Origin: a virus
Virus record (IMG/VR): IMGVR_UViG_3300044678_003030
Span: 29,957 to 93,956 of that record
Strand: one strand, 5' to 3'
Length of the DNA stretch: 64,000 bases
Under the pieces are notes generated by a model. That model was not told the origin of the DNA, made no database searches, and worked only from the letters and a program-made list of their open reading frames with translations. Of this stretch, positions 856 to 61,392 are shown piece after piece (the stretch's first letter is position 1; the number at the start of each line of letters is the position of its first letter). The position numbers and the translations under genes are program-made.

Positions 856-3800
856 GCCACTCCCACCGCTGGTCGTCTTTCTACGTCCCCGGCGACGCCT
901 ATCGGTACTGCGCGTGCGGCGCGATCGAGACGGTCTCGCCGGATGGCGAGCACGGGCCTGTGCCGGCCAAGGAGGAGGGATTCGTCCGTCGCCACATCGA
1001 GCGCCTGGAGAAGAGCGCGGAGGCGCTCAAGAAGACGCTTGGGCCCTTCACCTTCGAGATCGATCGGCCCGAAGGAACTACGAAGGCGTGGCCCGGTGGC
1101 AAGTCCTTTACGTACCCCGTCGACTACGGATTCTTTCCGAAGCTCGAAGGGGAGGACGGGGAGGGACTGGATGCGTTCGTGGGAGATGACCCGCACGGTC
1201 ACCTGGAGTCCTTCCAGAAGCTCAAGCCGAACAAGGACGGCAAGCTCGTCGCCGACGAGACGAAGTACCTGCTCGGCGTGAACGACCGTCAACGCGAGAC
1301 CATCTACAAGCTCTACGGGCGAGAGATCAACGCGCGTCGCGTGTACGACACATGGGAGGCGGTGGAGCGGTCGTTGGCGCGGTTCGAGAAGGAGGCGTCT
1401 GAGCCGGAGGAAACTCCGGTTTGGGAGAAGGACGTTCGCGACGCCGCCGGGGTTGCGCTCGCAGGGCTTGGCGCACGAAGTCTTGCGCATGGGGCTGCGG
1501 AGGACCTGCTAGGCGCGCAGAGGTTCTACCACGGTACTGGTGATGCAGCGGCAGCGGCGATTCGCCGTGATGGCCTTTTGGCTTCAATGGGAGGTAACCC
1601 CAACGGCAGTGCGTCTCTTTCGGGAGTCCAGTCTTACGTAAAGAATTCAAAGGGTCATGTACACGTCGGCACGGGCTTTTTAGGTGCGCAGGCGGCTCGC
1701 GGCTACGCCTCGCTCGTGGATGCCAAGGAGCGTAATCCGCTTCTTTCCAACGAAGGCGCAATGTACGCGTACCTGCGTGGGATGGGCCCTGGGCACAAAG
1801 GCACTGTTCTTCAGGGCGCTGTCCCGTACGAGTGGCTCTCCAGCAACTTTTCACCGGACCCTGATAGCGGCGGTAGCAGCGCTGCCCTCAAGGGGCAGGT
1901 GGACATCGGAGCCTCCCACATTTCAGACGGCGCCGTAGGTCTTCGAGACCTCTACAAGAATCGAGCTCCTGACCTCCTTGGGTACGTGAAGCGCAACCCA
2001 CGTCGTGTTGCGCATGGCGCCTTGATGGCCGGAGGGTCTTTGGCCGCTGTGTACGCTGCATATCGACTGGCCAAGATGATCCAGGACCGACACAGTAGCC
2101 CAGAGCAGGAGCCTGTTGTGGAAGCAAAGCTCGGAGCTGCCGATGCCCCCTCGAATCTTCTCGGACTCGTGGGCACGCCTCAGTACTACCTGACGCGCGC
2201 CGCTGACTTCCGTCGCCGACACCCTGATCTCCGCGCTCCTGACTACTACAACGAGTACGGCGATCGCTACGCCCACCGCTTCGAGAGCCAGACTCGTCCT
2301 CGGCTCTCTCCGGCCGGGCAGGCGTGGTTCGACAAGACCAAGCACGGCCTTCAGTATGCGATCGAGCAGAAGCGCCTCGAAGACCCTGAAGGGTTCGACG
2401 CCCTTGAGCGTGACCCCAAGGCGTTCCACCGCTTCGCGTACGACACGCACGGCCCGGTGTACCTGAACTCAGGGATTCGCAAGCTGCCGCTGCGCGACCT
2501 CATGCGCGTGGCGCGCACGCCAGACCTCAAGGATGTCATCAACCGAGATGGTCTACGTCTTGTGGGGCAGGTCTTGAATCCGTTCAACAAGGCGGCCTCG
2601 GTCAAGGAGGCGCGAGTCCCTACTCATGTGAAGCAGTACCGCCGCGCGCTTCAGATGTTGGCAGAAGGGCAACACGACTTCCACGGCACCGCGAATCTTC
2701 CTGGTGTTGTACGGACCGGTCGTGTTGTTGGCGGGAAGAATGACGCGTACCATACAGGCGGCAAAGCGTACTTTTCGCGCGGTTTTCCACTGGCTGAGTA
2801 CTTTGACTACGAGACCTCGAAGTACAACGATGGAGGGTTCGCCTTCCCTCGTGTACAGATGGACAAGAACAAAGCGGAGATCATTCCGGGGACACCTGCA
2901 ACCTTGCCGGTTCCCTACGTAGCTGCTTGGCACGCCCCCCTTCAACAGGGCGCTACCGTCTTTGTGACGTCTCCCGCTGCGAAAGTGCGCGAGGCAGCAA
3001 GCGCCGCGCAACGTAAGTTCAATCTGCGCCGCGTTGACCCCGAGGCTTACGCCCTCGCCGTTGAGACCCTGAAGGGCAACGTGTCTCCTGGTGCTTCCCA
3101 GCACATACTCAAGAACCTCGAAGGTCCGTATACCCCGGTTATGCCAGCGCCTTCAATTTCCGCCTCCTCTGTTGCAACCCCTCCCGCTGCGCCCTCTGTC
3201 TATTCCATCCTCAATCGCCGCAACGCCGCGATCGCAGGCGGTACCCTCGCCACGGCTGCCGCGCTGTACGGAGGCCACCGTTGGCTTCGTTCACGGCGTG
3301 AAAAGGAACAAGAAAAGGTCGCTGACGCAGTGGAACAAGACCCGTCCGAACAGCCGCCGAAGAAGTCCTGGCTACGTCGCAACGCGGCCCCGATTGCAGG
3401 GCTGACGACGGCAGCGGTAGTTGCACCGCTTCTCTATCGCTACCTGCGTAAGCAGCGACTGAGCAATGACCCCGCACTCCGCTCGATTCAAGAGGCATCG
3501 GGCGGCAGGTTCGGCCGCATCCTTGAAGGGCGGCAAGAGGCGATGTCTGCGCCACGTCGTTGGCTCGACCGATTGATCTACTCAGGTGGCGGCGATGTCC
3601 ACTACCAGGACAACCTCATCGAGGCGGCGCGCAAGAGTGGCAAGGTGCCGCAGGTTGAGGGGGTGCTCCTTCACAACGCGCCAGGGAAGCAGCTTGCACA
3701 GGGGGCCTCAAACCTTATCGCGAATCGTGATTCCGATGCGGTGTCGAGCATCTTTGACAACGGTAACAAGTGGCAGGAGTACAACATCTTCGAGCACTTT

Positions 3801-4862
3801 GCGCCGGGGTCCATGGGAAAGACCGAGAACGTTGCAGACGTTCTCGCTGACATGGGGCACAACCTCGGAGCTCGCAACCCGCGAGAGCGCGGACAGCAGG
3901 TCGAAGCCTTCCGTAAGGCCATGTCCAACAACGGCGCGCGTAGGCGAGACATGCTCGCGGAGCTTCAGAGTAACCTCCGTCAAAGGTTTGGGGACGGCTT
4001 CCTTCTCAAGGACGTCGACGCTGCTGCTACGGGGGGGAAGTTCCCCTCGGATCTGCACAACTTCACAGATCTTGTGAACGAGGATTCGCCTGCGGCGAAG
4101 ACTCTGATCAACGCGATCAAGGATCCGCGAAGTGTGATCGCGCAGTCGAAGCTGCCGCTCGCTCAAGGATCGTGGCTCGACCGGCAGTTTGCCAAGCTCC
4201 GTGGCCTGCCATCTACGCAGGAAGTTCGTGTCCATGTGATGAACGGTGCGGTCGCCCCGGACCTCACAGTGCCGCGCTTCTCTCCGACGATGTGGCTCAC
4301 CGGACGAAAGACGATGCGCGGCGCGGACCAGTACGCGCGTGATCTGCTTACGAAGTTGCCCGAGGAGCTTCAGCGCGGGACGTATGCGATGGACGTCGCA
4401 CCGCTCGTGGGTGGCGGGTACAAACTCATTGAGTCTAATCCTGGTTACCGTAGTGGTTTCTTGAGCCCCGGTAACCATCCGGTAATCGGACCTCTTCTGC
4501 ACAAGCAGTTCACTGGCCAGCACAGCCAAATGGTTTCTGGCCTTGGTGCCGGCGCGGGCGCTGTTGGCGGAGGGCTTACGGCAGCGGCTGGTGCGCGGTA
4601 CCTCGCCAACCGGCAGCAGCCGGAGCAAGAGTCTGAGCTTCACGGCGTGAAACAAGCCAGCGCCTTCGACGCCCTCAACTGGGTCCCCGCTCCTTTCCAG
4701 GGGCGCGTGCAGTCCCCGCAAGAAATCGTCTACGCCGCGCGCTCTACCCCTGCTCTCGCGGCGACACAGGAGAACCTTCGGCTGCTTCAGGTCGCCCAGG
4801 ACCCCTACGGCACCGGGTCTCCGACGCAGGGCGTCTCTCACCATCGACGTCATCACGGCTAG
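852..4862 (+). CDS. Giant multidomain protein: pyrophosphatase-like, two ADP-ribosyltransferase-like and an ATP-grasp-like region
   Basis: This 1336-residue protein starts at GTG 852, overlapping the upstream stop. Residues about 55-180 resemble family-I inorganic pyrophosphatase: GPFTFEI, YPVDYGFFP and DGEGLDAFVGDD, with the second aspartate of the DGDxLD motif replaced by glutamate. Near residue 225 FYHGTG, and near residue 609 DFHGT followed by GGKAYFSRGFPLAEYF, resemble the conserved start and core of ADP-ribosyltransferase domains. Hydrophobic segments lie near residues 385-410, 790-810, 845-866 and 1220-1245. Close to the C-terminus AMDVAPLVGGGYKLIESNPG resembles the metal-binding end of ATP-grasp enzymes. 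Known of such mosaics: they are often effectors. Inferred: a virion-injected host-modifying polyprotein. Domain calls are by eye; the long intact frame is certain. Confidence 0.6.
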   Translation: MSHSHRWSSFYVPGDAYRYCACGAIETVSPDGEHGPVPAKEEGFVRRHIERLEKSAEALKKTLGPFTFEIDRPEGTTKAWPGGKSFTYPVDYGFFPKLEGEDGEGLDAFVGDDPHGHLESFQKLKPNKDGKLVADETKYLLGVNDRQRETIYKLYGREINARRVYDTWEAVERSLARFEKEASEPEETPVWEKDVRDAAGVALAGLGARSLAHGAAEDLLGAQRFYHGTGDAAAAAIRRDGLLASMGGNPNGSASLSGVQSYVKNSKGHVHVGTGFLGAQAARGYASLVDAKERNPLLSNEGAMYAYLRGMGPGHKGTVLQGAVPYEWLSSNFSPDPDSGGSSAALKGQVDIGASHISDGAVGLRDLYKNRAPDLLGYVKRNPRRVAHGALMAGGSLAAVYAAYRLAKMIQDRHSSPEQEPVVEAKLGAADAPSNLLGLVGTPQYYLTRAADFRRRHPDLRAPDYYNEYGDRYAHRFESQTRPRLSPAGQAWFDKTKHGLQYAIEQKRLEDPEGFDALERDPKAFHRFAYDTHGPVYLNSGIRKLPLRDLMRVARTPDLKDVINRDGLRLVGQVLNPFNKAASVKEARVPTHVKQYRRALQMLAEGQHDFHGTANLPGVVRTGRVVGGKNDAYHTGGKAYFSRGFPLAEYFDYETSKYNDGGFAFPRVQMDKNKAEIIPGTPATLPVPYVAAWHAPLQQGATVFVTSPAAKVREAASAAQRKFNLRRVDPEAYALAVETLKGNVSPGASQHILKNLEGPYTPVMPAPSISASSVATPPAAPSVYSILNRRNAAIAGGTLATAAALYGGHRWLRSRREKEQEKVADAVEQDPSEQPPKKSWLRRNAAPIAGLTTAAVVAPLLYRYLRKQRLSNDPALRSIQEASGGRFGRILEGRQEAMSAPRRWLDRLIYSGGGDVHYQDNLIEAARKSGKVPQVEGVLLHNAPGKQLAQGASNLIANRDSDAVSSIFDNGNKWQEYNIFEHFAPGSMGKTENVADVLADMGHNLGARNPRERGQQVEAFRKAMSNNGARRRDMLAELQSNLRQRFGDGFLLKDVDAAATGGKFPSDLHNFTDLVNEDSPAAKTLINAIKDPRSVIAQSKLPLAQGSWLDRQFAKLRGLPSTQEVRVHVMNGAVAPDLTVPRFSPTMWLTGRKTMRGADQYARDLLTKLPEELQRGTYAMDVAPLVGGGYKLIESNPGYRSGFLSPGNHPVIGPLLHKQFTGQHSQMVSGLGAGAGAVGGGLTAAAGARYLANRQQPEQESELHGVKQASAFDALNWVPAPFQGRVQSPQEIVYAARSTPALAATQENLRLLQVAQDPYGTGSPTQGVSHHRRHHG
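3290..3302. repeat. Dispersed dyad TTCAC-GGC-GTGAA, site 1
   Basis: Exact match to the 13-bp dyad. It lies inside the giant + strand gene and is read there as Ser-Arg-Arg-Glu, directly after a hydrophobic segment. Confidence 0.85.
4639..4651. repeat. Dispersed dyad TTCAC-GGC-GTGAA, site 2
   Basis: Exact match near the 3' end of the giant gene, read as Leu-His-Gly-Val-Lys. Same spacer as site 1 but read in a different codon phase. Confidence 0.85.
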
Positions 4863-4880
4863 CGTGATAGGGTCTGAGAC

Positions 4881-5204
4881 ATGCTCTCGTTCGACCCTGT
4901 GGGCCACTGCCCTGCGTGCCAAAAGATGAGGAAGAAGCCGCGAAATCAGCTAGGTGACTTCGCGCCGATCGATACGTGCGTGTGCCGCAAGGGTCAGGGC
5001 ACGTTCGGCGCCTACGTCGACCGTCTCTACGCCCATGTCGACCTCGGCAAGGACGACACACGCGAGGTCTTGATGGTCCTCTGCACGCTGCTCGGGCGTG
5101 CGCAGGGCGCCGTGCTCGTCGGGGACCGCAAGGCATTGCGCGAGGCGCTCGCGCAGCTCTCGGCGATCGTCTGGCGGCTCGGGGAATCGCTGGAGTCAAC
5201 GTGA
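4881..5204 (+). CDS. Small cysteine-containing protein of unknown function
   Basis: A 107-residue protein of no recognised family. It has an N-terminal CPAC pair followed by a Cys-Val-Cys pair about 20 residues later (residues 10-35), a plausible zinc-binding knuckle. The C-terminal two thirds look helical and alanine/leucine-rich. It ends in a GTGA overlap with thymidine kinase, so the two are probably co-translated. The giant gene ends 18 bases upstream with no terminator seen, so all three may share a transcript. No strong ribosome site is visible before the ATG. Confidence 0.6.
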   Translation: MLSFDPVGHCPACQKMRKKPRNQLGDFAPIDTCVCRKGQGTFGAYVDRLYAHVDLGKDDTREVLMVLCTLLGRAQGAVLVGDRKALREALAQLSAIVWRLGESLEST

Positions 5205-5743: not shown

Positions 5744-5768
5744 AATCGGCCCTGCGTGCAGGTATAAG
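5742..5768 (+). promoter_or_regulatory. Putative phage promoter AAAA-N17-TATAAG
   Basis: AAAA at 5742-5745 (overlapping the thymidine kinase stop) and TATAAG at 5763-5768 are separated by exactly 17 bases. The same arrangement precedes the next two genes. The first transcribed bases (around TGTCCAGAACC) also resemble those after the promoter at 6974. Confidence 0.6.
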
Positions 5769-5836
5769 ACTGTGTCCAGAACCCTCTGGCTTGCGTCAAT
5801 TCGGCGCGGCACACGAGGACGGACGGAGTTCACATC

Positions 5837-6569: not shown

Positions 6570-6570
6570 C

Positions 6571-29847: not shown

Positions 29848-32592
<2,745 letters not shown>

Positions 32593-34435: not shown

Positions 34436-35397
34436 GCGGGGTTCCTTTGCGGAGAGTAGTCTAGGCGAGGATGGGAATCTCCCGTGGGCGCAGGGGCCTT
34501 GGACAGGAGCTTACGCCCACCATGAATGGCGGCGCCGGAGAGGAGTAGCGCGCTTACGGGGTTCTGCTTCACGGCATCGATGACAAAGCCTTTGAGATCT
34601 GCCGTCTTCGGGGGAAGCATCTGCTGCACGGGTTGCTGCACGGGTTGCTGCACGGGTTGCTGCACGGGTTGCTGCACGGGTTGCTGCGGGGCCTTGGGAT
34701 CGAACTTCGACCCAACCCACTGGCCGAGCTGCTGGATCGGTTGCTGAATCAGGACAGCTCCGGGGATACCGAGGCGCGAGGTCAACGGTGCTGCGGCGAG
34801 CCCGGCGACCATGCCACCGATGTTGCGCCCAAGGTTGGTTCGGCCCTGGCGCGCGATACGGGCGGCGTTCATTGCAGGCCCGAGCAGGCCCAAGGCCGTA
34901 CCGAGCGGGTTGCCCCGGGGGACGTAGAAGTCACGCGCCATTCCCAGGTAGCCCTTTTCCCGAAACTGACGGTCGAGGGCGAGCGGCGAGCCGAAGACGT
35001 TTTCCCTGAGCCCTTCGCCGACGACATGTCCGACGTTTTTGGCCCACCCGCCAAAGCCCTTGCCGTATCCTATCGCGGCAGGCATGAACGAGGCGCCGTT
35101 CGGTTGGATGACCTTGCCATCCATCTTGAAGGCGCGATTCTCCGGCATTCGCATCACGGGTTGATGTGCGCCGTAAGCCTGCATTCCGAGGATGTGCTTG
35201 CCAAAGAAGTTTGGCTGGAAGAATCCGTCTTGTGTGGACCCGGCGAGACGGTTGTGGAGGAACCCTGTTGGGGCCTGCACCTCGGGGGTGCTGTGGAACG
35301 GCAGTCCGTGCTCGTCGAATAGAAAGCGGCCAAACCCCTTGGCTTTTGCCACCACGTCGTCGACGACCGCTGCCTCTTTCACGCCGTGAAATGTCAT
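34432..35397 (-). CDS. Late protein with QPVQ tandem repeats
   Basis: A 321-residue protein starting MTFHGVKEAAVV, where the start overlaps a dispersed dyad. The middle is glycine-rich with hydrophobic runs (LGTALGLLGPAMNAARIA, GGMVAGLAAAPL). Near residue 240 a QPVQ repeat of about six units acts as a flexible linker, followed by LPPKTADLKGFVIDAV with a Lys-Thr-Ala motif and a final hydrophobic segment. Its stop overlaps the 585-residue gene start. No family recognised; style matches other ejected-protein candidates in the block. Confidence 0.5.
   Translation of the reverse strand: MTFHGVKEAAVVDDVVAKAKGFGRFLFDEHGLPFHSTPEVQAPTGFLHNRLAGSTQDGFFQPNFFGKHILGMQAYGAHQPVMRMPENRAFKMDGKVIQPNGASFMPAAIGYGKGFGGWAKNVGHVVGEGLRENVFGSPLALDRQFREKGYLGMARDFYVPRGNPLGTALGLLGPAMNAARIARQGRTNLGRNIGGMVAGLAAAPLTSRLGIPGAVLIQQPIQQLGQWVGSKFDPKAPQQPVQQPVQQPVQQPVQQPVQQMLPPKTADLKGFVIDAVKQNPVSALLLSGAAIHGGRKLLSKAPAPTGDSHPRLDYSPQRNPA
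34619..34690 (-). repeat. 12-bp tandem repeat (QPVQ units)
   Basis: About six copies of TTGCTGCACGGG on the + strand, almost identical to each other, encoding QPVQ units. The near identity suggests recent slippage expansion. Confidence 0.9.
35378..35390. repeat. Dispersed dyad TTCAC-GCC-GTGAA, site 16
   Basis: Exact match in codons 3-7 of the QPVQ-repeat gene, read on the - strand as Phe-His-Gly-Val-Lys, eight bases from the beta'-C gene end. Confidence 0.85.
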
Positions 35398-37199
35398 CAG
35401 TAGGTACCGTCCAGCCCCTGCCGCAGTTCAGCGCCGAAAGCGTAGGCAGGCACAGGGTGAACCCCGTGGATGTTCGAGCCGAGGCCCTCAGAAGCCGCGC
35501 GCGAGATTGTACCCTTGAGACCTCGGTGTGCGAGGAGGGCGAGCCAGTCGTCATCCAGCAGCGGGTTTGTCGCCAGAGGCTTCATGACGTGTTCGATCTT
35601 CGGCATGCTACGGCTGACGAGTACCTCTCGGATGCCTTTACGGCTCAGGTCGTTGGCGACTGACGGCGTGATGCGGGTACCGAAGGTGTAATGGAACACC
35701 TCTTGGCCTAGCACCTTCCCGATGGCGTCAGCCAAGGGAACACGAGACACGTCTTTGGCGTAGGTCTCTCGGAGGCGGTTGTAGTTGACCACGTCGCCCT
35801 TGATCAGCTCCGGGTGCGATGGGTCTTGCTCGGAGATGCGGACGTGGTTCAGAACGCTCTTGGCGAGCAGTTCGAAGTGGCGCCTGTCCATCGACACGCC
35901 TTCGTTCTTGTAGACCCCAGCCAGCGAGTTCACAAGGTTCTCCCGAGACGCCCCAATTCCCTTGTAAAGCGTCAGCTTGGCAGGGTGCGGAACTCCGTCT
36001 GTCAGGGAATCACCAGCCTCCACGTGCTGGCCAACCCTCACTTTTACGGAGAGCTCGGGCTGTGAGTAGAGCTTCTCCTTGTCCACCCACACGAAGTGAC
36101 CGCCTTGAGCCGCAGGTTCGATCTTCGTCACGACACCGTCGGCCGGCGCGAGGGTTGCTTCGTGCGCGAACGCCTTGGGGATCTCCAGGAGCTGTCGCAC
36201 TCCCTTGAGCCCCTGTGGGTTCAAATTGCGCTCACGAATCGTGAGCACCGCGTGCTTGGACCCGAGGGCCATCTGCGTAAGCGGCTCGGCGAGCGCATGC
36301 GCAGTACGGATTCCGACGTTCGTCCCAATGGAGTGGAGCTTGCCCTTTTCGTCGAGCCCCATGCACATCTGGCAGACGCCCTGCGTTGCCGTACACGTCA
36401 TAGGGCTGCGTACGGTGAAGTCGACGTCGTTCGCAGCGCGGAACTGCTGAACGACGCGCGGAGTGATCAGGGTGTTGCGCGGGATCTTGTGCTCAGAGAT
36501 GGCAAGGTATCGATCGATCGCGTGTTGATCATCGACGTGCAGGAGGACGCCGTTTTGCGTGCCACAGTCATGCGCGGTGACGACCTTGGAAGATGTGTTG
36601 GCGATGAGGAGCTTTGCCATCTCACCGGGTTGAGACACAGAGACGACGGACGCGACGTTGTTGGCGCGTGCTTCAGGCGCGACTTCCCAGTACTCAGCCG
36701 GCGAGAGACCCTCGGCATAGGAGTGCCGCACAAGGAAGGAACCGATGCCACGCCCAGGCAGGTTTGACGCGAGAGGGGTCGCGACGATCTTCATGAGCTG
36801 AGACGGGTTGCCGCGTGCCCCCGAGAGCGCCATGTGAGTCATTGACCCGGGGTGGCTCTTGGTCTGCGCCAAGAGCTGCGTCTGTGCTCCGATGACGAGC
36901 TTCTCCCTCTTGGTCGGGTCCTTCTCCGCAGCCAGAGCGTCGGCGACGTTGTTCATGATCGCGTCGCGCTCTTTGTAGAGCGGCCTTACGTCAGACACGC
37001 CGACGGTGATGCCTTCCAAGGTCGCGATCTCGTCGCCGCGCTTCTTGAGCTTCTGGATCGTCTCGACGTACTTCTGCGGGTCGGACTTCGCGAGCCCTAC
37101 GACATGGTCATGAAGCTGCCGCTGGGTCATCGGCCCTGAGACCTTGTACCCATCGGGCAACACGTTGTTGACCAGCAGATGTCCAATTGTTGTGGGCAT
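35397..37199 (-). CDS. DNA-directed RNA polymerase beta' subunit, C-terminal part
   Basis: A 600-residue protein equal to the C-terminal part of bacterial beta'. SGARGNPSQLMKIV and GLSPAEYW near residues 135-180 are the conserved bridge-helix/trigger-loop-side sequences. DCGT near residue 212 plus MTCTATQGVCQMC near residue 270 supply four cysteines for the beta' zinc site. GTNVGIRTAHALAEPLTQMAL is the conserved segment after it. The active-site aspartates are in the other RNA polymerase gene, so the two proteins must assemble. ATG 37199 is preferred to a TTG 21 bases earlier. Two unrelated late genes separate it from the beta gene. Confidence 0.92.
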   Translation of the reverse strand: MPTTIGHLLVNNVLPDGYKVSGPMTQRQLHDHVVGLAKSDPQKYVETIQKLKKRGDEIATLEGITVGVSDVRPLYKERDAIMNNVADALAAEKDPTKREKLVIGAQTQLLAQTKSHPGSMTHMALSGARGNPSQLMKIVATPLASNLPGRGIGSFLVRHSYAEGLSPAEYWEVAPEARANNVASVVSVSQPGEMAKLLIANTSSKVVTAHDCGTQNGVLLHVDDQHAIDRYLAISEHKIPRNTLITPRVVQQFRAANDVDFTVRSPMTCTATQGVCQMCMGLDEKGKLHSIGTNVGIRTAHALAEPLTQMALGSKHAVLTIRERNLNPQGLKGVRQLLEIPKAFAHEATLAPADGVVTKIEPAAQGGHFVWVDKEKLYSQPELSVKVRVGQHVEAGDSLTDGVPHPAKLTLYKGIGASRENLVNSLAGVYKNEGVSMDRRHFELLAKSVLNHVRISEQDPSHPELIKGDVVNYNRLRETYAKDVSRVPLADAIGKVLGQEVFHYTFGTRITPSVANDLSRKGIREVLVSRSMPKIEHVMKPLATNPLLDDDWLALLAHRGLKGTISRAASEGLGSNIHGVHPVPAYAFGAELRQGLDGTY

Positions 37200-38933: not shown

Positions 38934-41900
38934 TCAGCCGATTTCGACGGGGTCGTCGACTTTGACTTCGCCGCGACGCCATGCCGCAACGGCTTCGGCC
39001 TCAGTCTTGAATCGACGCACAGGTTGCGCCTTGTTGGGCGTGTACTTGAGCGCGTGCGTGATCCCGATGATCGCCTCGTGCTGCGGAAACGCCATCAGCT
39101 TGTTGGGCGTCTGGTCGGAGAGCAGCAGGTGGGACATTGTCATGCGCTTGGCGTCGTCGATACCTGCGCGGGTGAGCGGTACGTGAACCTGAAGGGTGTC
39201 ACCGTCGTAGTCCAGGTTGAAGCCCTTCTCCACGAAGGGCGAAACCCTGATCGTCTTCCCCATCGTCGGCTGTGCGTACGCGGCGACGATGCCGAAGCGG
39301 TGGAGCGTCGGCGCGCGGTTCAGTAGCACAGGCCGCTCCTTGGTCTCTTCCACGAGGCATTGCTTCGCAGCAGGCGCCCGCTTGTCGACGAGCTCTCGTG
39401 CGTGAAGCGCGCTGTAGCCCTTGCGCACCAGTCGAGCGACCAGGAGCTTGTCGAACATCTGCCAGAGCATGTCTTCAGGCAGGCTCACAGCGTCCATGTG
39501 CAGGTTGCCGTCAGGCACCGCCGTACCACGGCCAGAGACGTCTTGCTGCCTCTTCATCAGCTTGCGCTGGAAGAAGCCACCCTTTGGTGACCCTTGCCCA
39601 GAGACCTGAGTCAAGAACCCCTTGACCTCCTCCTTCTGGAGCTTCTGGTCGTCGACGGTGTGGGTCCCGAACACGGCTCCAACGGCGTTGTAGAGCGCAG
39701 CCCGGTGCTTCGGAACGTCCGAGTCAAGGACGGCGTCCTTGACGGCGTCGTTCACGTCCATGAGATGCCCGTAGAGCTTGTTCGCATCGGCGACCATGAG
39801 CTGAGACGGGTTGTTCTTCTGCTGCGTGATCGGGCGGAAGATCGGCGGAATCACAGGCACCTTCGAGAGTACGTAGGCGTTCTCCGGTCGGAGCCCCTCG
39901 GCCTTGAGGGCGCGTAGGTACTTGATCTGCTTCACCGCGTTGTTCAAGTCGCTCGCCTTGAGCATCGGCAGCTTGCCCTCAAGCTCCTTGAGTTTGGCGT
40001 CGATGTTGATGCTCGCGAGCTCCTTCTTGATGTGCCCGCCGCCCTTCTCCTTGAGGAGGTCGGTGAACCGCTTCTCGGTCAGTCCGAGGAGGCGCCGAAT
40101 CGGCTCCTCAAACACCGGGTTGGGCATGGCCTCGTGAAGGTCCACGTGGGAGTAGAGCGTGCCCTCGGTGCCGCCCGTGAGGAAGGGGTCAAACAGCCCG
40201 CCCTTTTCGGGCTTGAGGTTCTTGGCGATGAGGGTCTTGCTGTTTTGCACAGCACCCGAAGAGCGCGCCATGATGTCAGCGTCCGTCGCCGGCAGCAGGC
40301 GGAACTTGGAGCCATCCTTGCGGACCTTGACTCCCGCGCCTTCGAGCATCGCCTGGAACTTGTTGAAAGCGAACGACGGACGGTTCGCCGGGAGGGGCTG
40401 TCCGAGCTGAATCGCGCGCCAGAACGCCTCGTTCTTCTGCCCTCGGATGTTGGCGGCGTCGGAGAGCATTCCGCGTGCGTTGTGCGCCAGCAGCGCATCC
40501 ACCTCCATCTTGCCGAGGCCCTTGGCGCCTTCTTCGCCACCCTGCTTGAGGGGCTGCTCGTTGGCGTCGTAAGGGCCGACACCGTGGCCCGCGAAGTTTG
40601 TGTCCGTCGACTTGAAGAGCTTGAAGATGAAGCTCCGACCCACGAACACACCTTGTCCGTCAGGGCCGACGATCTTTCGGCCGCTCACAGGGTCGTGTAC
40701 GTGTTCGTACCCGCTGACGTTGTGCTCCTTGGCGAGCCTCTCGACCCAGTCGATGGCGTTCTCGGACGACGCGTTGTCGAAGAAGATCGGCTTCTTGGTC
40801 TTCTCCGCGATCTTACCCGCCAGAGCCTCGTGGAGCTGCGCCGGGTTGATGCGGGAGACCACGCCCGCGCTCGTCATCAGTAGCTCAACAGGATTGCCTG
40901 CGGAGTCTTTGATCATCTCCTTGTCGGAGACGATCTTGGCGACCACGCCTTTCCCGCCGAAGCGGTTCGCCAGCTTGTCGCCGACCTGCATCTGCTCGTG
41001 GGTCTTCACGAGGACCGCGATCTGCGTCGGGGTACGCACGACGTCGACGACTTCTCCCTGCGTCCCATGCTCCCAGGACAGGGAGACTTCCTGCCAGGGC
41101 TTGGTGAGCGTCTTGGAGATCTTGCCGAGCATCAGGTCGGTGCCGGTGACCTGTGCCTTGGCGAGTCCTGCGACGAGGAGGTCGTGGTGGTTTACCTTCG
41201 CCCCCTTCTTCACGACGCCGGTTTCGTCGAGCTGCGCATACTGCGAGGGTTGGTACTTCGCGCCGAAGTAGACCTTGTGGCGCTTCGCCGAGAGCTCGAT
41301 CGTCGCGTTGAGCGGAAAGACCTCGCGGTACATGTGCTCGGAGGTCATTCGCTTGGCGAAGCCCTCGCTGATCACCACGGCGTCGTTGGAGTTCAGCCCG
41401 TAGTAGGGCATGTACGCGACACGCGCGTTGAGCCCTGACGCGAGCGTGCCGTTGCGCGTGAAGTTCGAGTCGCCGAGCATCTGCCCCATCTCGACGGTGT
41501 CGTTGGCCTTCACCGAGAGGGTGTGGTGCAGGCGCGTCTTCGAGGGGAAGGGGAAGTTGTCGCTGTAGGGGACCTTGATGAGCTCACGCTCGCGACGGGC
41601 CGCTTCTTTCACCGAGTGAACCTCGGCCGGGCTCGGGTTTTCCCACGGGGCGTAGCCGTGCATAAACCACTCACCGAGCGAACCCGTATTGAGATCATCA
41701 AGGCTGTCATCATGCGTAAGCTGCGGGGGCAGGACACCGTACACCACATCAGCGGCTAGCCGGGGGAGACGCTTGCCGGCAGAGGCCAACGCACCATCCG
41801 CGCCAGGGTAATTGAACATGTACCGAACGTCGCGCCCGGCCAGCCCTGCGTTCATTGCGGCGTGGTTTGCCCAGATGCGCCCGTAGCTCGCCGTCTTCGA

Positions 41901-44006
41901 CCCCTTCCGGTAGTCCTCGATCTCTTCCTTGAGATCATCCCAGGAGGCGTACTCGACGCGGTTGACACAGCGAGTCTTCGGCTTGCGCTCGATCTGACGC
42001 AGGACCGTGTCGACCTTCTCCATGGGGACGCCGACGATGAACTTCACATCGGCCGGCTTCCACTCACCATCTTCGTTCTGTTCGTCGGTGTCGACGGAGA
42101 CCAGGGCGCCGTCAGGGTCGTCACCGACCCAGAAGTCCAGGGAGTCGCCATCAGGGCCTTCGAAGCCCGGGAGGTAGCCATAGTCGCAGGGGAAGGGATG
42201 ACCCCAGGGCTTCTCGCCCTTCTCGATCTCGATTTCGAAGGTGAAGGGCCCGTGCTTCTTGGACTGCGCCACCGGGCGGTCCGCGAGCTTCTCTTCCTCT
42301 GCGGCCCTCTTGGCGCGGCGCGGCTCAATGTAGATGAACCCGTGTTCGATCTTGCGCACAATGCCGCTCACGGGCGCGAGCGGCACAACCATGCGGCCGT
42401 AGAAGTCCTCATAGGACCCCCCGTCCGGGTGTTTGACCTGCACCAAGGGCGCCTCCCGCTGAAGCAGTGGCAGACCCTGTGTCTGCATCTTGGAGCCCAT
42501 GATCGCACGGTTCCCCTGGATCGAGTGCAGGAGAGGGATCAGGCTCGTGGCCGGCGAGTAGGTGTGCGAGACGTGGAGCTGCTGATAGTCAACGTCCTTG
42601 GCGTCGACCTTCTGGACCTGCCCTTGGTGAAGCGCGTCTACACGCCCCTGCATGCGCTGATGCGGGAAGGCGATGACTTTGCTCATCATGTCCGAGGCGT
42701 TCACGAACTCGGTCTTGTTGGTCCGTGCGTTCCTGAGCGGTGTGTAGAGGTTGCCCTCTTCGTCTCGGTGAGCGGCGATCGTGGCGCGGATGTCGACGCC
42801 TGCGTGGCCGCTCTCTGGCGTGCGGATCGGGTCGAGGATGCCGAAGTGCGTCGCGTGCGTGAGGCGTGTTGAAAAAGGGATCGCGCGCTCACTGGGAATG
42901 CCGCCCTCTCCGAGCGCTGTGACCTTCACCGAGTGATCGAGGAGCTCAAGCGGGTTGATTCCCGTGGGCACCGCTGAAAGGGCGCTCGACGTGATGAACT
43001 GGCGCAGCGGCTGGGAGAAAGGAGCTGGCTTGAGAGAGCCTCGGATCTCCTGCTTGCCGTTGAGCGCCATGCGAGCCTTCGGAGCCCATTCGCGCGCGGT
43101 GAGCTTCACGCGCTCTGCGAGAAAGTCGTCCACGCTGTGGAATGTCTTGAACGCGAGCGAGTCGGCGTCGTCCTCCGGGTCTTGACCCCTGTGCACGCGG
43201 AGCAGCTTTTGCGCTGCGGCGAGGAGCGCAGGCGGGGTGACCTTGTCGTGTGACGCCCCGAGCGTGATGCGCGTGACGTGCGCGTCCATCACGGTGTTTC
43301 CGAAGCGCTTGATGACCTCTGCGAGCTTCTCGGTGTGGCTCGCCTTGGCATTGAACACGGACTCGTGCGCGAGCTTTTGGTAGAGCTTCGCGATCGAGAT
43401 CTCCTCCTTGCCGCCGAAGAGCGCCTTGTTGGCGTCAGCGATGGGAGCGCCGAGCTCGCGCGCGATGACCTCATGGGTGACCCCGAGGGCGCGTAGCACA
43501 GGGTAGAGCGGGATGTTCGTCGAGTCGTAGACGAGGTAGAACGCTGACTTCGCCGGGTCGATCGTGACGTTGAAGTTCGCACCCTTGGAGAGGTTGAACG
43601 TCGTGTGCAGCTCCCCGTTCGCGCTCCGCTGCGTGTACGCGCCAGGACGGCGACGCAGCATGTTCGCGATCTGGTACTCGTTGCCGTCCATCAGGATGGT
43701 GTGGCGTTCGGAGAACCACGGGAGGTGCGTGAGGGTGAAGTTGCGCGCCTCGTTGACGATCTTCCCGTCGCCGTCTTTCAGGACGAGCGTCCCCTTCACG
43801 GGCTCAGAGAGCGAGTCGCCGGTGAGGAGCGCGTGCTTCTGCTCCTCAGGGGAGAAGTCTCGCGCGAGCACCTTGATGTCCTTGACCTCCAGGGTGCGAC
43901 CCTTGAGATCGACGGGGAATGCGCGTTCGAGCTCCCTGACGACTTTCCCGCGCACATTTTCGCGCAGCGAGTGGGCGTCGGTGAGTACAGGTGACAGGAC
44001 AGGCAT
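38934..44006 (-). CDS. RNA polymerase beta / beta'-N-terminal fusion with inserted pyrophosphatase-like domain
   Basis: A 1690-residue protein combining beta with the N-terminal half of beta'. Beta motifs: ILDPIRTPESGHAGVDI near residue 390, YGLNSNDAVVISEGF near 865, KLANRFGGKGVVAKI near 1010 and NPAQLHEALAGK. Beta' motifs: RPVLLNRAPTLHRFGI and NLDYDGDTLQ, the latter keeping all three catalytic aspartates, near residue 1600. Residues about 583-700 interrupt beta with GPFTFEI, CDYGYLPGFEG and DGDSLDFWVGDD, hallmarks of family-I inorganic pyrophosphatase, followed by a SKTASYG motif. It needs the separate beta'-C gene at 35397. No alpha or omega subunit is recognised in the window. Confidence 0.93.
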   Translation of the reverse strand: MPVLSPVLTDAHSLRENVRGKVVRELERAFPVDLKGRTLEVKDIKVLARDFSPEEQKHALLTGDSLSEPVKGTLVLKDGDGKIVNEARNFTLTHLPWFSERHTILMDGNEYQIANMLRRRPGAYTQRSANGELHTTFNLSKGANFNVTIDPAKSAFYLVYDSTNIPLYPVLRALGVTHEVIARELGAPIADANKALFGGKEEISIAKLYQKLAHESVFNAKASHTEKLAEVIKRFGNTVMDAHVTRITLGASHDKVTPPALLAAAQKLLRVHRGQDPEDDADSLAFKTFHSVDDFLAERVKLTAREWAPKARMALNGKQEIRGSLKPAPFSQPLRQFITSSALSAVPTGINPLELLDHSVKVTALGEGGIPSERAIPFSTRLTHATHFGILDPIRTPESGHAGVDIRATIAAHRDEEGNLYTPLRNARTNKTEFVNASDMMSKVIAFPHQRMQGRVDALHQGQVQKVDAKDVDYQQLHVSHTYSPATSLIPLLHSIQGNRAIMGSKMQTQGLPLLQREAPLVQVKHPDGGSYEDFYGRMVVPLAPVSGIVRKIEHGFIYIEPRRAKRAAEEEKLADRPVAQSKKHGPFTFEIEIEKGEKPWGHPFPCDYGYLPGFEGPDGDSLDFWVGDDPDGALVSVDTDEQNEDGEWKPADVKFIVGVPMEKVDTVLRQIERKPKTRCVNRVEYASWDDLKEEIEDYRKGSKTASYGRIWANHAAMNAGLAGRDVRYMFNYPGADGALASAGKRLPRLAADVVYGVLPPQLTHDDSLDDLNTGSLGEWFMHGYAPWENPSPAEVHSVKEAARRERELIKVPYSDNFPFPSKTRLHHTLSVKANDTVEMGQMLGDSNFTRNGTLASGLNARVAYMPYYGLNSNDAVVISEGFAKRMTSEHMYREVFPLNATIELSAKRHKVYFGAKYQPSQYAQLDETGVVKKGAKVNHHDLLVAGLAKAQVTGTDLMLGKISKTLTKPWQEVSLSWEHGTQGEVVDVVRTPTQIAVLVKTHEQMQVGDKLANRFGGKGVVAKIVSDKEMIKDSAGNPVELLMTSAGVVSRINPAQLHEALAGKIAEKTKKPIFFDNASSENAIDWVERLAKEHNVSGYEHVHDPVSGRKIVGPDGQGVFVGRSFIFKLFKSTDTNFAGHGVGPYDANEQPLKQGGEEGAKGLGKMEVDALLAHNARGMLSDAANIRGQKNEAFWRAIQLGQPLPANRPSFAFNKFQAMLEGAGVKVRKDGSKFRLLPATDADIMARSSGAVQNSKTLIAKNLKPEKGGLFDPFLTGGTEGTLYSHVDLHEAMPNPVFEEPIRRLLGLTEKRFTDLLKEKGGGHIKKELASINIDAKLKELEGKLPMLKASDLNNAVKQIKYLRALKAEGLRPENAYVLSKVPVIPPIFRPITQQKNNPSQLMVADANKLYGHLMDVNDAVKDAVLDSDVPKHRAALYNAVGAVFGTHTVDDQKLQKEEVKGFLTQVSGQGSPKGGFFQRKLMKRQQDVSGRGTAVPDGNLHMDAVSLPEDMLWQMFDKLLVARLVRKGYSALHARELVDKRAPAAKQCLVEETKERPVLLNRAPTLHRFGIVAAYAQPTMGKTIRVSPFVEKGFNLDYDGDTLQVHVPLTRAGIDDAKRMTMSHLLLSDQTPNKLMAFPQHEAIIGITHALKYTPNKAQPVRRFKTEAEAVAAWRRGEVKVDDPVEIG
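41608..41620. repeat. Dispersed dyad TTCAC-CGA-GTGAA, site 18
   Basis: Exact match in the RNA polymerase gene, read on the - strand as Val-His-Ser-Val-Lys. A one-mismatch relative lies at 42925 in the same gene. Confidence 0.85.
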
Positions 44007-50897: not shown

Positions 50898-51746
50898 CTA
50901 GAGCAACTCGCTCACGTCTGTGACACCGAGCGTGTCCAGGTACACCTTGAGCTTCCCCAGCCCTGCGTCTCGGAGCGCGGCGAGTTCGAGCGTCGTATAG
51001 ACCGACCCATCGATCGCGAAGAGCCTGAGAGCGAGCTCGTCAAGGTCGTGCTCCCCGTCTCCGATAAATCCGTAGATGTAGGAGAGGACGAGGCGTTCAC
51101 GGCGTGAAAGTCCGGCCTTGACCATGTGCCGAACGAGCGGGGCCACGTCTGACGGGCTGGCGTCGCTAGCCAGTGTCTCAGGGTCGACCGAGGCGAACGT
51201 AGGCTCCTCGAACGAGTAGTCACGCCGCTGCCCGAGGGCCATCTCAGCCTCTTCGACTCGGCGTTGTCTTCGGTTGGCCTTGCGGACGTGGTTCGGGACG
51301 TGGACCAGTTGGTCGCGGTTGAGGTACTCCTGGATTCTGACGTTGATCCAGTAGTCGGCGTAGGTGAGGAACCGCGTCCCGTGTGCTACGTCGAAGCGGT
51401 ATACGGCATCCATCAGGCCGCAGTTGCCCGCGCTGACGAGCTCCCTGAGGAGCTGTTCGTCGCGCGTGTATTTTCGCGCCACCTTGATCACGAAGCGGAG
51501 GTACCCCCTCGGGATCGTCTGCTCCAGCCGCGTGACCTTAGCTTTCCAGACCTTGAGGTCGCTCTCGATCCGGCGCCGCTTCTCTCCTGCTGGCAGCTTG
51601 TTGAGCTTCTTCTCGGCGCTCTCGACGCTTTGACGCGCGACCAACAGGTTGGTGAAGTTCTCTCTTTCTTGCGCGGCGGTAGGCTGTGTCTCACGCCCGA
51701 CCTCCAAGAAGTAGACGGACGCGATGCGGTCCTCACGTTGACTCAC
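50898..51746 (-). CDS. Sigma-70 family RNA polymerase sigma factor
   Basis: A 282-residue sigma factor. Region 2: YLRFVIKVARKYTRDEQLLRELVSAGNCGLMDAVYRFDVAHGTRFLTYADYWINVRIQEYLNR (about residues 80-145) contains the core-binding and -10 recognition helices. Region 4-like: GLSRRERLVLSYIYGF and the C-terminal ELAALRDAGLGKLKVYL. Region 1.1 is absent, as in alternative sigma factors. GTG 51746 has TTAGGAGG six bases upstream. It is the only reverse gene in the right-hand module and so has its own control. It could program the phage polymerase encoded here or host core enzyme. Confidence 0.9.
   Translation of the reverse strand: MSQREDRIASVYFLEVGRETQPTAAQERENFTNLLVARQSVESAEKKLNKLPAGEKRRRIESDLKVWKAKVTRLEQTIPRGYLRFVIKVARKYTRDEQLLRELVSAGNCGLMDAVYRFDVAHGTRFLTYADYWINVRIQEYLNRDQLVHVPNHVRKANRRQRRVEEAEMALGQRRDYSFEEPTFASVDPETLASDASPSDVAPLVRHMVKAGLSRRERLVLSYIYGFIGDGEHDLDELALRLFAIDGSVYTTLELAALRDAGLGKLKVYLDTLGVTDVSELL
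51096..51108. repeat. Dispersed dyad TTCAC-GGC-GTGAA, site 22
   Basis: Exact match within sigma region 4 coding sequence, read on the - strand as Ser-Arg-Arg-Glu. Confidence 0.85.
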
Positions 51747-53164: not shown

Positions 53165-53167
53165 GTC

Positions 53168-57757: not shown

Positions 57758-57769
57758 CAAGAGGCACTG

Positions 57770-60700
57770 ATGGCGTCTGTTTCGCTCCTTGCGCCGCCGC
57801 CCCCTTTCTCTTGCGCAGTCTGTGAGCAAGGGACGTACGCTGACAAGGCAGGACCCGGCTGTCGGGCCTGCCCGCTCTTCACAGGTACTCACTACTTTCC
57901 AAGCGGGCAAGGAGACCTCGCTTGTGATGTGCTCTTCCTGGGCGAGCACCCGGAGAAGCCTCCGCTCATCCAGGTGCAGCGCCCCGGGAAGGAGCGCCCG
58001 CTTGATCACTCCGCGTTTCAGGATGACGCGGGTCGCGTCGTACGAGGCGCCGTTGATCAACTCAAGACCGCAGAGCCCTCATTCCGAGGGCTCGTGGTTC
58101 GTTACGGGTACGCGCTTCGTTGCGCGAGTGACACAACACCGAAGAAGGCGTTGCAGGCATGCCAAGGGCCGCTTCGTCACGACTTCGAGCTGATCGCAGC
58201 AGCGCGCGCGTTCTCAGGTAAAACCACGCCTCTCGTCGTCGTCGCGCACGGTACGAACGCCCTTGCCGCCCTCGGTGTAACCGGCAAGAAGGAGGACGAC
58301 GCCAAGAACAAGGTTTTCAACGTCCGCTTCGCGGGCTTGGACTTGGTCGTGGTCTTCACGCGCAGCTTGGCCGCGATTGCTGCGTCGCCCGGCACCTACG
58401 AGTCCACGCGGCAGAACATCGCGCACGCGCTGGACATCGCAGCGGGCCAGGACGTGAAGCCTCTCACACGTGAAGGCATGGCAGCGGGCCATGTCTATCC
58501 GAAGACGCTTGAAGAAGTCGAGAAGCTCTGCGACTTCCTCATCGACTACGCCCCGCCAGGACGAGACCCGGCGACGTGGTCGATCTCTTTCGACACCGAG
58601 ACCAACACGCTCTACCCCACCAAGGGGGTTCAGCTTACGGCCGTCTCTTTCGCGTGGAACAATGGCAAGGCGTGCGCGATCGCGCTCTGGCACCACGAAA
58701 CACCGTACGACCCGGCTGCTGCGTTCGAGCACGTCAAGCGGGTGATTCGCTCCAAGCGGCTCATCCTTCACAACTACCGCTATGACGTCAAGGTCTGCTG
58801 GAAGCTCGGGATCGACATACCACAACTCGCGTGGGATACGCTCCTCGCTGAGCACATCCTTCGCGAAGACGCCAAGGGCTTTTACGGCCTAAAGGCCCTG
58901 ACCGCAGAGTTCTTCCCGGAGCTCGCAGGGTACCAGAGCAAGGTCGACGAGATCGTCGAAGAGGAAGAGAACAAGGCGATCAGCGAGACGGTCAAGGAGA
59001 GCAAGAGGGGGAAGAAGCACGAGGTCCCCCCTGTTCTTCTTGAGAAGCTCGCGCGCCTCAACCTCACGCCGAAGTTCCGCGAGGCGACGCTCCAAAAGCG
59101 CCTCGACGAGTGGCTCGCGTCAGCGCAGAGCAAGCTCATCCCTGAAGCCGGTGACGAAGAGATTCGCCGCAACATCGAGGACGCACAAGCCGTCATCGCA
59201 GCCAAGAAGGCCGGCGAGTTCAAGGCCGGGCCCAAGCCCAAAGCCGAGAAGAAGGTGCAGGTCGACGGCGCCTACGCACTGATCCCGCTGGATCAGCTTC
59301 TCTTCTACGCCGCTGTCGACGCTGACGCGACACGGCGCCTCGCACTCCTCCAGATTGACCGCATGAAGGAGGAGGACGCGCGCAACGCCGACAAGCAAGA
59401 CAAAGTCGCCCGTGTGATGCGCTTCTCGATCGAAGGTAAGAAGTTCCAGGTCATCAAGCGGAGCAAGGAGCAACATCCACGAATCGCTTTGACCCGGGAC
59501 CGTATCGTGCACCGCGCACGAGCCCTCGCCAAGATCGAATACCACGGCGTCAAGATCGACACCGAGTATCTCAAGCAGTGCCGCATCGACATCGAGCACA
59601 CTGTCGCGGAGGCGCAGCGGCGCCTCTTCGAGATGGCAGGGATGGACTTCAAGCCGAGGGGCGGCAAGCAACTGCCCAAGCTCTTCTGCGACACCGGCAT
59701 TGGCTACATCGCGCCCGACAAGGAGCGTGCGCAGTGGCTCGCCGACACACACCCCGATGTCTTCAAGTATTCGGGTGATCGCCTGATGTATCGCGTCCCT
59801 TCGAAGGAGAACGGGGACAACCCGTTGCGCTTCACGAAGAAGGGCGCAGTACAGATGGACGCCGGGTTCCTCAAGCGCGTCTCAGCCGCGTACAAGGACC
59901 CCTTCGCGGACTTGAACCTTGCATGGCGCAAGGCTGCAACGATTCGCGACTCTTTCCTCGTCAACATCTCACGCCTCGTCGAGTTCTACGGGGACGGGTT
60001 CATTCGGCCTGGGTACAACATCCCGGGCACGGCAACAGGCAGACTCTCTTCGTCCTCAGGCGTCAGGGGGATCGGCTACAACGGGCAGAACACCCCCAAG
60101 AAGCCCATCGGGACCGTGAACTGCAAGAAGCTGTTCATCCCTGATGACGACGATCACGTCTTCGTCAACATCGACGGCGCAGGCGCCGAGATCGGCATTC
60201 TCACGGCCTACGCGCCCGACAAGACGCTCATCGACGCGATCCTTGCGGGCCAAGACACGCACAGCTTCTTCTCCGCGAGCATCTTGAACCCTGAACTCGT
60301 CGCAGACGGCAAGACTGGGGAGGCGCGGCGTGCGGCGCTCAAGCTCGCTGGCATCGATGACGTGCACGCCTGGACCTACGACGACTTCTTCATCGGCGGG
60401 AAGAAGCAGGCGCTAGAAGACAAGGACTACTGCGCACGTCTTTACGAGCTGCGTGACAACATCAAGAAGGTCGTCTTCGCGACGCTCTTTGGTGGCGGCC
60501 CGAAGAAGATCGCCGAGATCGCCGGCATTCCGCTCTCGTTCGCCAAGAAGGTCATCGAGCTCTTCTTCCGCCGATTCCCGCTCGTGCCTGACGCGATCAA
60601 GCACTCGCAGTGGTGCCTCAAGACCTTCGGGTTCAACGAGACCTTCTACGGGCGCCTGCGTCGCTTCATGATCGATAACGCCCCGTCGGGCATGGTCGCC

Positions 60701-61114
60701 CGTGCGGAGCGCCAGGGATTCAACTTCCTCATCCAGTCGACGAACTCTGACATCGTGCTCGACGTCCTCACAGACCTCGATCGTGAAGTCGAAGCTCTCG
60801 GCGGCAGGCTCCTCGGCACCGTGCATGACTCCGTCATGTTTCAGTTCCCGAAGAAGTACCTCGGGCAGCTCGAAGACCTCGTTCTGGAGATCGGTACGCG
60901 CAAGGTTGCGCGAGAGAAGCCTTGGCTCCCGGTCCCCTTCAAGTGGGACATCGAGGTGGGCCCCAGCTACGGCGAGATGCAGAAGATCAAGGAGTACATG
61001 AAGGGCGTCAGGGTCGATACGACCCCTACGTTCATCGGTCACACCGAGGCTGATGTGCTCGAAGAGCTGCGGGACAACGAGCCTGTATTCGCCAGCAAGA
61101 AGGGCAAGAAGTGA
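57770..61114 (+). CDS. DNA polymerase A with uracil-DNA-glycosylase-like N-terminus
   Basis: A 1114-residue replicative polymerase. Residues about 15-200 resemble family-4 uracil-DNA glycosylase: CAVC and CRAC cysteine pairs, SGQGDLACDVLFLGEHP, FQDDAGRVV. The exonuclease domain has SFDTETNTL and LILHNYRYDVK. The polymerase has TATGRLSSS, VNIDGAGAEIGIL (motif A), KKVVFATLFGGGPKKIAE (motif B) and GTVHDSVMFQFP (motif C). Motif C is HDS where Pol A usually has HDE; the catalytic aspartate is kept. The phage SPO1 polymerase has the same glycosylase-exonuclease-polymerase order. A charged insert fills about residues 395-520. Confidence 0.92.
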   Translation: MASVSLLAPPPPFSCAVCEQGTYADKAGPGCRACPLFTGTHYFPSGQGDLACDVLFLGEHPEKPPLIQVQRPGKERPLDHSAFQDDAGRVVRGAVDQLKTAEPSFRGLVVRYGYALRCASDTTPKKALQACQGPLRHDFELIAAARAFSGKTTPLVVVAHGTNALAALGVTGKKEDDAKNKVFNVRFAGLDLVVVFTRSLAAIAASPGTYESTRQNIAHALDIAAGQDVKPLTREGMAAGHVYPKTLEEVEKLCDFLIDYAPPGRDPATWSISFDTETNTLYPTKGVQLTAVSFAWNNGKACAIALWHHETPYDPAAAFEHVKRVIRSKRLILHNYRYDVKVCWKLGIDIPQLAWDTLLAEHILREDAKGFYGLKALTAEFFPELAGYQSKVDEIVEEEENKAISETVKESKRGKKHEVPPVLLEKLARLNLTPKFREATLQKRLDEWLASAQSKLIPEAGDEEIRRNIEDAQAVIAAKKAGEFKAGPKPKAEKKVQVDGAYALIPLDQLLFYAAVDADATRRLALLQIDRMKEEDARNADKQDKVARVMRFSIEGKKFQVIKRSKEQHPRIALTRDRIVHRARALAKIEYHGVKIDTEYLKQCRIDIEHTVAEAQRRLFEMAGMDFKPRGGKQLPKLFCDTGIGYIAPDKERAQWLADTHPDVFKYSGDRLMYRVPSKENGDNPLRFTKKGAVQMDAGFLKRVSAAYKDPFADLNLAWRKAATIRDSFLVNISRLVEFYGDGFIRPGYNIPGTATGRLSSSSGVRGIGYNGQNTPKKPIGTVNCKKLFIPDDDDHVFVNIDGAGAEIGILTAYAPDKTLIDAILAGQDTHSFFSASILNPELVADGKTGEARRAALKLAGIDDVHAWTYDDFFIGGKKQALEDKDYCARLYELRDNIKKVVFATLFGGGPKKIAEIAGIPLSFAKKVIELFFRRFPLVPDAIKHSQWCLKTFGFNETFYGRLRRFMIDNAPSGMVARAERQGFNFLIQSTNSDIVLDVLTDLDREVEALGGRLLGTVHDSVMFQFPKKYLGQLEDLVLEIGTRKVAREKPWLPVPFKWDIEVGPSYGEMQKIKEYMKGVRVDTTPTFIGHTEADVLEELRDNEPVFASKKGKK

Positions 61115-61392
61115 TTGTTCACCGCGTGAAAGTTCTCCATGACGGGGCCTTCTACGTGGGAGATTGGCCGGGCGCTGAGCCTGCTTTGAGTCTCCTTGAC
61201 GTCATCAAGGACGCCAAGAGACACTTCGCGAGATCGTGCAAGCTCGACTCGATCGACGTTTCGATCGACGCGACCCTTGTCACACAGGACCTGAATGAAG
61301 ACCATGCCGAAGCCGAACAACAAGAAGCCCTGGTCGTGGCTGGACACCGAGACCACGGGTCTCGACCCGACCATCTGCCCGAGGTCAGGTGA
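61111..61392 (+). CDS. Small protein overlapping the polymerase stop
   Basis: A 93-residue frame. The first 62 residues (VHRVKVLHDGAFYVGDWPGAEPALSLLDVIKDAK and on) look like a small folded protein; the last 30 lie over the next gene's start and may be tail noise. GTG 61111 overlaps the polymerase stop by four bases (GTGA). A dispersed dyad covers codons 3-7. No family recognised. Confidence 0.5.
   Translation: MIVHRVKVLHDGAFYVGDWPGAEPALSLLDVIKDAKRHFARSCKLDSIDVSIDATLVTQDLNEDHAEAEQQEALVVAGHRDHGSRPDHLPEVR
61118..61130. repeat. Dispersed dyad TTCAC-CGC-GTGAA, site 25
   Basis: Exact match just after the polymerase stop, read as Val-His-Arg-Val-Lys. Rightmost exact site in the window; a two-mismatch relative lies at 63487. 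Confidence 0.85.

Follow-up and report, generated by a model that had tools for sequence, protein, structure and literature searches.

What reads a short dyad that recurs along a phage genome, and to what end? The question is raised by a 64,000-nucleotide stretch of viral DNA (hereafter the window; positions 29,957 to 93,956 of IMG/VR record IMGVR_UViG_3300044678_003030), across which the inverted repeat TTCAC-N3-GTGAA is dispersed. The whole record that contains the window (93,956 bases) is referred to as G000. We infer, at a probability of roughly 0.75, that the dyads are genome-wide loading sites of a CTPase of the ParB/Noc/KorB family encoded by the phage itself.

All 25 copies listed in a preliminary description of the window are exact matches (Table 1), and its claim that they far exceed chance is borne out: dinucleotide shuffles predict 0.02 copies, with a maximum of one in 100 shuffles. 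If one mismatch is permitted, just three further window sites appear (42925, 48814 and 55053). G000 contains 40 copies in total, or approximately 0.43 sites per kb, and the enrichment over chance exceeds 1000-fold. The consensus symmetrised over these 40 sites (n = 80) is (T)TTCAC-B-S-V-GTGAA(A). The flanking base of the spacer (position -1) is G in 45, C in 20, T in 15 and A in none, as had been noticed for the window; the centre is G or C in 76 of 80, and the outer flank is T in 42 and A in 2. Gaps average 2.30 kb with a coefficient of variation (CV) of 0.40, and 20,000 random placements yielded none as even, in agreement with the regularity first described. The earlier statement that no gap exceeds 5 kb and no two sites lie within 500 bases of each other holds for the maximum (4,954 bp, P = 0.00045), but genome-wide one pair outside the window (record positions 3627 and 3712) is separated by 85 bp.

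The window also encodes a candidate binder, P0001. It matches PHROG ParB families (E 4e-11) and the helix-turn-helix (HTH) family HTH_ParB (PF17762; 6.6e-11, 42.7 bits against a cut-off of 22.6), and has PDB profile matches to Spo0J, Noc and KorB, of which Noc is the best (9e-19). While its AlphaFold model is weak overall (pLDDT 58), the DNA-binding domain alone is usable; in Foldseek, this predicted domain matches DNA complexes of Noc, ParB and KorB, with a TM score of 0.83 by target against the Noc DNA-binding domain. CTPase boxes II and III are intact (AGRRRVAG, ENLDR) and read GRRR/GRQR and EN(L/I)KR in the ParBs of relatives. PF02195 is above cut-off in two of these (G001, G003), slightly under it in another (G004) and unreported for P0001. 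The ParA-binding motif (L/F/I)G(K/R)G(L/F/I) is absent from all six ParBs checked, and ParA (PF13614) was detected in none of seven records, which may be fragments, against 14 of 14 controls. P0001 is an orphan member of the ParB/Noc/KorB family. The dyads, in turn, resemble the sites of this family. Their arms, (T)TTCAC/GTGAA(A), are identical to the half-site of parS, TGTTTCAC-GTGAAACA (PMC7383237), and their layout of 13 bp with a one-base centre is that of the KorB operator, TTTAGCGGCTAAA (PMC5577506). Proteins of the ParB family are loaded at sites of this kind, where they bind CTP and close before sliding away (PMC11790492, PMC12704722).

Relatives were collected with three proteins. DNA polymerase searches yielded seven records with polymerases 31-43% identical over most of their length, weaker matches being left unused; G008 was found through a ParB alignment search alone; and an RNA polymerase (RNAP) alignment search added three further fragments (L114, L115, L117). 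No close DNA relatives were found among known phages. Single-sequence queries of IMG/VR with ParB and with RNAP gave no matches, and a ParB search of genome contigs returned bacterial ParBs only, mostly from Clostridia. G001-G005 and G008, all the relatives whose fragments span the region, encode ParB.

These genomes fall into two motif classes. TTCACN3GTGAA (class 1) is found 40 times in G000, 39 in G004 and 18 in G005, and at most once each in G001, G002, G003 and G008. The latter carry 36, 28, 37 and 17 copies, respectively, of the class-2 motif TTTACGNCGT, against 0.2-2.6 expected. This motif, TTTACG-N-CGT(AAA), comprises one full half-site and the core of the other, and occupies the same 13-bp register as TTCACGSCGTGAA with the third base changed from C to T. 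Loss from the nearest relatives, which the preliminary description had held would count against the motif, is therefore not what is seen: the dyad is either kept or altered in register. Among the fragments, L114 and L117 belong to class 2, and L115, only 9 kb long, looks like class 1. Spacing is more even than random in every genome (in G006 with only seven sites). As a separate observation, G006 (L060-L062) contains six copies of TTTAC-N3-GTAAA, about one per 6.8 kb and with no central G/C, a possible third motif class.

The two motif classes are matched by two groups of ParB. The recognition-helix segments are GVSSATVSQ, GVSDAMVSQ and GVADSKVSQ in class 1, and HVTDGYVSQ, AISEGNVSQ, SISEGNVSQ and NISEGNVSQ in class 2; in our own alignment, they differ at the equivalents of ParB G170, S174 and A184 (residues in PMC7383237). 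G008, a genome found by its ParB only, has a motif class that agrees with its HTH class. In answer to a question posed in the preliminary description, site positions are also partly conserved. Orthologous positions are shared at 7 of 16 sites between G000 and G005 (0.35 in rotated controls), 5 of 23 between G000 and G004 (0.31) and 14 of 22 between G005 and G004 (0.36). Across classes, G004 and G003 share 6 of 31 (0.56); G000 does not exceed the rotated controls with either G003 or G001. In several pairs from different classes the two sites are in exact register, the switched base aside. Permutation of synonymous codons within genes, a control that had been expected to retain the dyads if they were a by-product of coding, leaves approximately the non-genic copies alone (40 to 19.5 in G000, 39 to 11 in G004, 18 to 6 in G005). 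Either strand carries coding dyads, which fall in the two phases without an in-frame TGA. The dyads are real and strongly selected at the DNA level.

By analogy with characterized family members, a dimer of P0001 would read the two TTCAC half-sites through its HTH domain, bind CTP, close into a clamp and slide off the site. Clamps from neighbouring sites, about 2.3 kb apart with no gap above 5 kb, could then cover the phage genome from end to end; at intervals of 1.7-2.8 kb between loading sites, no part of it would be out of a clamp's reach. This arrangement suggests that the phage coats or marks its entire genome with its own clamp protein. The preliminary description had proposed a site for a genome-organising, segregating, packaging or silencing protein. 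The evidence speaks strongly for a genome-wide site read by a dimeric DNA-binding protein, but ParA-driven segregation is disfavoured because there is neither a ParA nor a ParA-binding motif. Because spacing is even and promoters have little bearing on where the sites lie, we consider it most likely that the protein organises and marks replicating phage DNA independently of ParA, as a phage nucleoid protein would; the nearest alternative is global modulation of transcription with the phage's RNAP and sigma factor, and packaging and shielding remain among the candidate uses.

Several points weigh against the assignment of these sites to ParB. The half-sites lie 3 bp further apart than in canonical parS, which has no spacer. 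The G006 fragment does not cover the ParB region, and the phages Adler and Hedwig, which have orphan ParB-like proteins, show no comparable dyad. Conserved AVK-like short peptides could partly explain some of the in-register coincidences in coding DNA. In addition, the trees group the class-2 genomes as a single clade, so the correspondence between motif and ParB may reflect one evolutionary switch rather than independent replication, and the binder could be any protein inherited alongside. An unrecognised DNA-binding protein, such as a repressor, nucleoid or packaging protein conserved in the phages, might thus fill this role, with ParB class following by shared ancestry; most core proteins lack a family assignment. 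We nevertheless regard this as improbable, given that the dyad arms equal the parS half-site, that the motif change coincides with recognition-helix differences, and that ParB is the sole HTH match among the core proteins scanned in Pfam, where the other DNA-binding matches are to the sigma factor and RNAP subunits only.

Another possibility is that the ParB-type protein binds the dyads chiefly to regulate transcription globally, in the manner of KorB or VirB and together with the phage RNAP and sigma factor, rather than to organise the genome. In G000, 15 sites lie near 5' ends of genes (3.8 expected), and 20 of 40 are wholly coding (35.5 expected), half touching gene boundaries, which are approximate because gene calls came from a simple codon-usage script. 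The parB gene adjoins that of the sigma factor, an arrangement kept in G001, G003, G004 and G008, the phage encodes a multisubunit RNAP, and KorB silences at long range through clamp sliding (PMC11790492). Such regulation as the main role is unlikely, though to be taken seriously: 29 of 39 sites in G004 and 13 of 18 in G005 are wholly coding, boundary sites in G000 are chiefly in tandem spacers (17) with few in divergent ones (4), and promoter operators are not expected to be evenly spaced. RNA hairpins (stem 5-6 bp, loop 3), serving as terminators or processing sites, would fit the perfect inverted repeats of class 1 and their enrichment close to gene ends in G000. However, most copies in G001 and G003 pair at only 3-4 of 6 positions and still persist; base identity rather than pairing is conserved, and many copies lie within genes in both orientations. 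This explanation was rejected as very improbable. Even less credence is given to DNA methyltransferase or restriction sites, retained or protected by modification. Such sites are typically interrupted palindromes, but the enrichment, even spacing and positional conservation led us to reject them, and the proteins scanned included no recognisable methyltransferase, save for a weak fragment match in the helicase.

Loading of ParB-type clamps has precedents that the phage resembles in part. KorB acts on OB operators of the IncP plasmid RK2 (PMC11790492, PMC5577506) and is likewise a ParB-family CTPase with an HTH, with 13-bp dyads of single-base centre spread in multiple copies over the replicon; its clamp slides from the site, as proposed here. 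The phage differs in its site density (as given above), in reading TTCACG/TTTACG rather than TTTAGC, in having no ParA partner where RK2 has IncC, and in being a phage with its own RNAP and half or more of its sites in coding DNA. The KorB operator TTTAGC-S-GCTAAA (TTTAGCNGCT) is found in 0-2 copies per genome, and no KorA-like family was seen among the proteins scanned, with sites lying partly at gene boundaries. The ParABS systems of chromosomes and plasmid-prophages share the half-site TTTCAC and a ParB with CTPase boxes and HTH; the phage, in contrast, lacks ParA and its binding motif, and has dispersed sites with half-sites 3 bp apart instead of one parS cluster. A cluster of parS TGTTTCACGTGAAACA is not present, and TTCACGTGAA occurs 0-1 times per genome.

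The analogy with Noc drawn at the outset is fitting, since P0001 belongs to the same family, and Noc of Bacillus too has many dispersed sites without ParA. Its NBS sites are far sparser than the phage dyads, and a nucleoid-occlusion role is not expected in a phage. The two also differ in sequence and spacing, since NBS is TATTTCCCGGGAAATA with no spacer (PMC7383237, PMC8429893). Nothing was found that points to MatP, whose matS sites had been named as another parallel. Stoperators of Cluster A mycobacteriophages are comparable as numerous short sites scattered over a phage genome, but they are asymmetric, transcription-oriented and bound by the immunity repressor (PMC4351075, discussion). This analogy fails because the phage dyads are perfect, unoriented and present in coding DNA, in genes of both strands; moreover, no integrase was found in the lineage, whose records may be incomplete.

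A parallel in layout comes from the Cluster O mycobacteriophages Corndog and Catdawg, which carry 34 exact 17-bp dyads, TGTTCGG-N3-CCGAACA. Their function was left unexplained; the authors doubted promoter regulation and did not link the dyads to gp90 (PMC4351075). As in the phage studied here, an orphan ParB-like protein (gp90, homologous to P0001; hhalign 96.7%) accompanies approximately 30 or more dispersed dyads with a 3-bp spacer, many of them coding. The dyads differ in sequence, the phage group is unrelated, and spacing is clustered (CV 1.11) rather than even. It is a tentative proposal, at slightly less than even odds, that a ParA-less clamp loaded from about 40 even sites coats the genome and in this way marks and organises the viral chromosome, that the protein and all its sites switched specificity together in place, and that Cluster O represents a second, independent case.

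The association is not universal, as Adler and Hedwig demonstrate. A rule that an orphan phage ParB implies dispersed dyads was rejected on their account; dispersed dyads go with some phage ParBs and not all. Nor do dyads follow RNAP: neither Arash nor Vibrio D181, two phages that share it, has a ParB match, and the D181 stretch is without such a dyad. A literature search found no additional dispersed dyads in phages. Two other genomes are recorded as separate observations. Variovorax phage VarioGold (L097/L098, W03) has six dispersed copies of GTGCA-N6-TGCAC in 39 kb (consensus GTGCAGACGTCTGCAC) and a large ParB-annotated protein. Aphanizomenon phage Yong-DA (L130-L132, W08) has five dispersed copies of GTTCAGA-N2-TCTGAAC, possibly dispersed parS sites, along with ParA and ParB. 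The Acinetobacter 'phage' MD-2021a contig and MT835476 (L077, L082) were set aside, as their gidB-par chromosomal gene order makes them look bacterial.

Table 1. Dyads and parB-region genes of the window, numbered from its first base
Feature	Sequence	Position	Strand	Remarks
Dyad	TTCACGGCGTGAA	3290..3302		
Dyad	TTCACGGCGTGAA	4639..4651		
Dyad	TTCACCGGGTGAA	5268..5280		
Dyad	TTCACGCGGTGAA	7802..7814		endolysin gene end; orthologous site in G004
Dyad	TTCACTGCGTGAA	11459..11471		
Dyad	TTCACGGCGTGAA	13656..13668		
Dyad	TTCACTCAGTGAA	15953..15965		
Dyad	TTCACCGCGTGAA	19584..19596		upstream of 1090-aa gene; orthologous site in G004 and G005
Dyad	TTCACTCCGTGAA	21105..21117		intergenic
Dyad	TTCACTCGGTGAA	22770..22782		
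Dyad	TTCACCGCGTGAA	23283..23295		
Dyad	TTCACCGAGTGAA	25420..25432		
Dyad	TTCACGGCGTGAA	27385..27397		orthologous site in G004 and G005
Dyad	TTCACGAGGTGAA	29743..29755		
Dyad	TTCACGCCGTGAA	32645..32657		gene boundary; orthologous site in G005
Dyad	TTCACGCCGTGAA	35378..35390		orthologous site in G004 and G005
Dyad	TTCACCGCGTGAA	38211..38223		
Dyad	TTCACCGAGTGAA	41608..41620		within RNAP gene
Dyad	TTCACGGGGTGAA	44314..44326		intergenic; orthologous site in G005
Dyad	TTCACTCCGTGAA	46548..46560		34-bp divergent spacer
Dyad	TTCACCGCGTGAA	49472..49484		145 bp upstream of parB start
Dyad	TTCACGGCGTGAA	51096..51108		within sigma-factor gene
Dyad	TTCACGCCGTGAA	53168..53180		upstream of exonuclease gene; orthologous site in G004 and G005
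Dyad	TTCACGCAGTGAA	56164..56176		within primase-like gene
Dyad	TTCACCGCGTGAA	61118..61130		directly after DNA polymerase gene
Small open reading frame, 89 aa		49347..49616	+	immediately upstream of parB; orthologues in relatives
P0001, ParB/Noc/KorB-family protein, 399 aa		49629..50828	+	proposed dyad binder; profile, fold and motif matches
Sigma factor		50898..51746	-	convergent neighbour of parB; PF04542 2.9e-11; phrog_351

The small open reading frame (ORF) upstream of parB is a possible candidate partner of ParB. It has orthologues of 118-121 aa in G004 and G005, that of G004 overlapping the parB start, and a similar ORF in G001; it has no PHROG match. The multisubunit RNAP includes a 1690-aa fusion protein (38934-44006, minus strand) of beta and an N-terminal portion of beta' (Rpb2 domains 2, 3 and 6; Rpb1 domains 1 and 2), and a separate C-terminal beta' piece with Rpb1 domain 5 (35397-37130, minus strand). 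An InPase-like match between the beta domains scores 23.6 bits, just under the Pfam cut-off. A sub-cut-off InPase match like that inside RNAP is also seen (E 1.1e-4) in a 1336-aa protein (852-4862, plus strand). The orthologue of the fused RNAP in G004 (L053:11667-17645) is approximately 300 aa longer and contains an intein-like insertion (CLTGDAEVFTATGW...) that G000 lacks. ORFs of the structural region carry in-frame repeats at 30244-30646 and 34622-34699, a Met/Gly-rich repeat and a 12-bp tandem repeat. There are no tRNAs in the window.

ParB-type CTPases are known as partition proteins with clustered sites, as the sparse Noc system and as plasmid regulators. If the reading proposed here is true, a ParA-less phage ParB with dense, even loading sites throughout the genome would represent a new use of the clamp, and the phages would provide a natural series of matched specificity variants of protein and site. 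Likewise, the question of what binds the Cluster O dyads, which dates from 2015 and for which an association with ParB was not proposed by the authors of PMC4351075, becomes directly testable, because these phages, which grow on M. smegmatis, encode an orphan ParB-like protein homologous to P0001.
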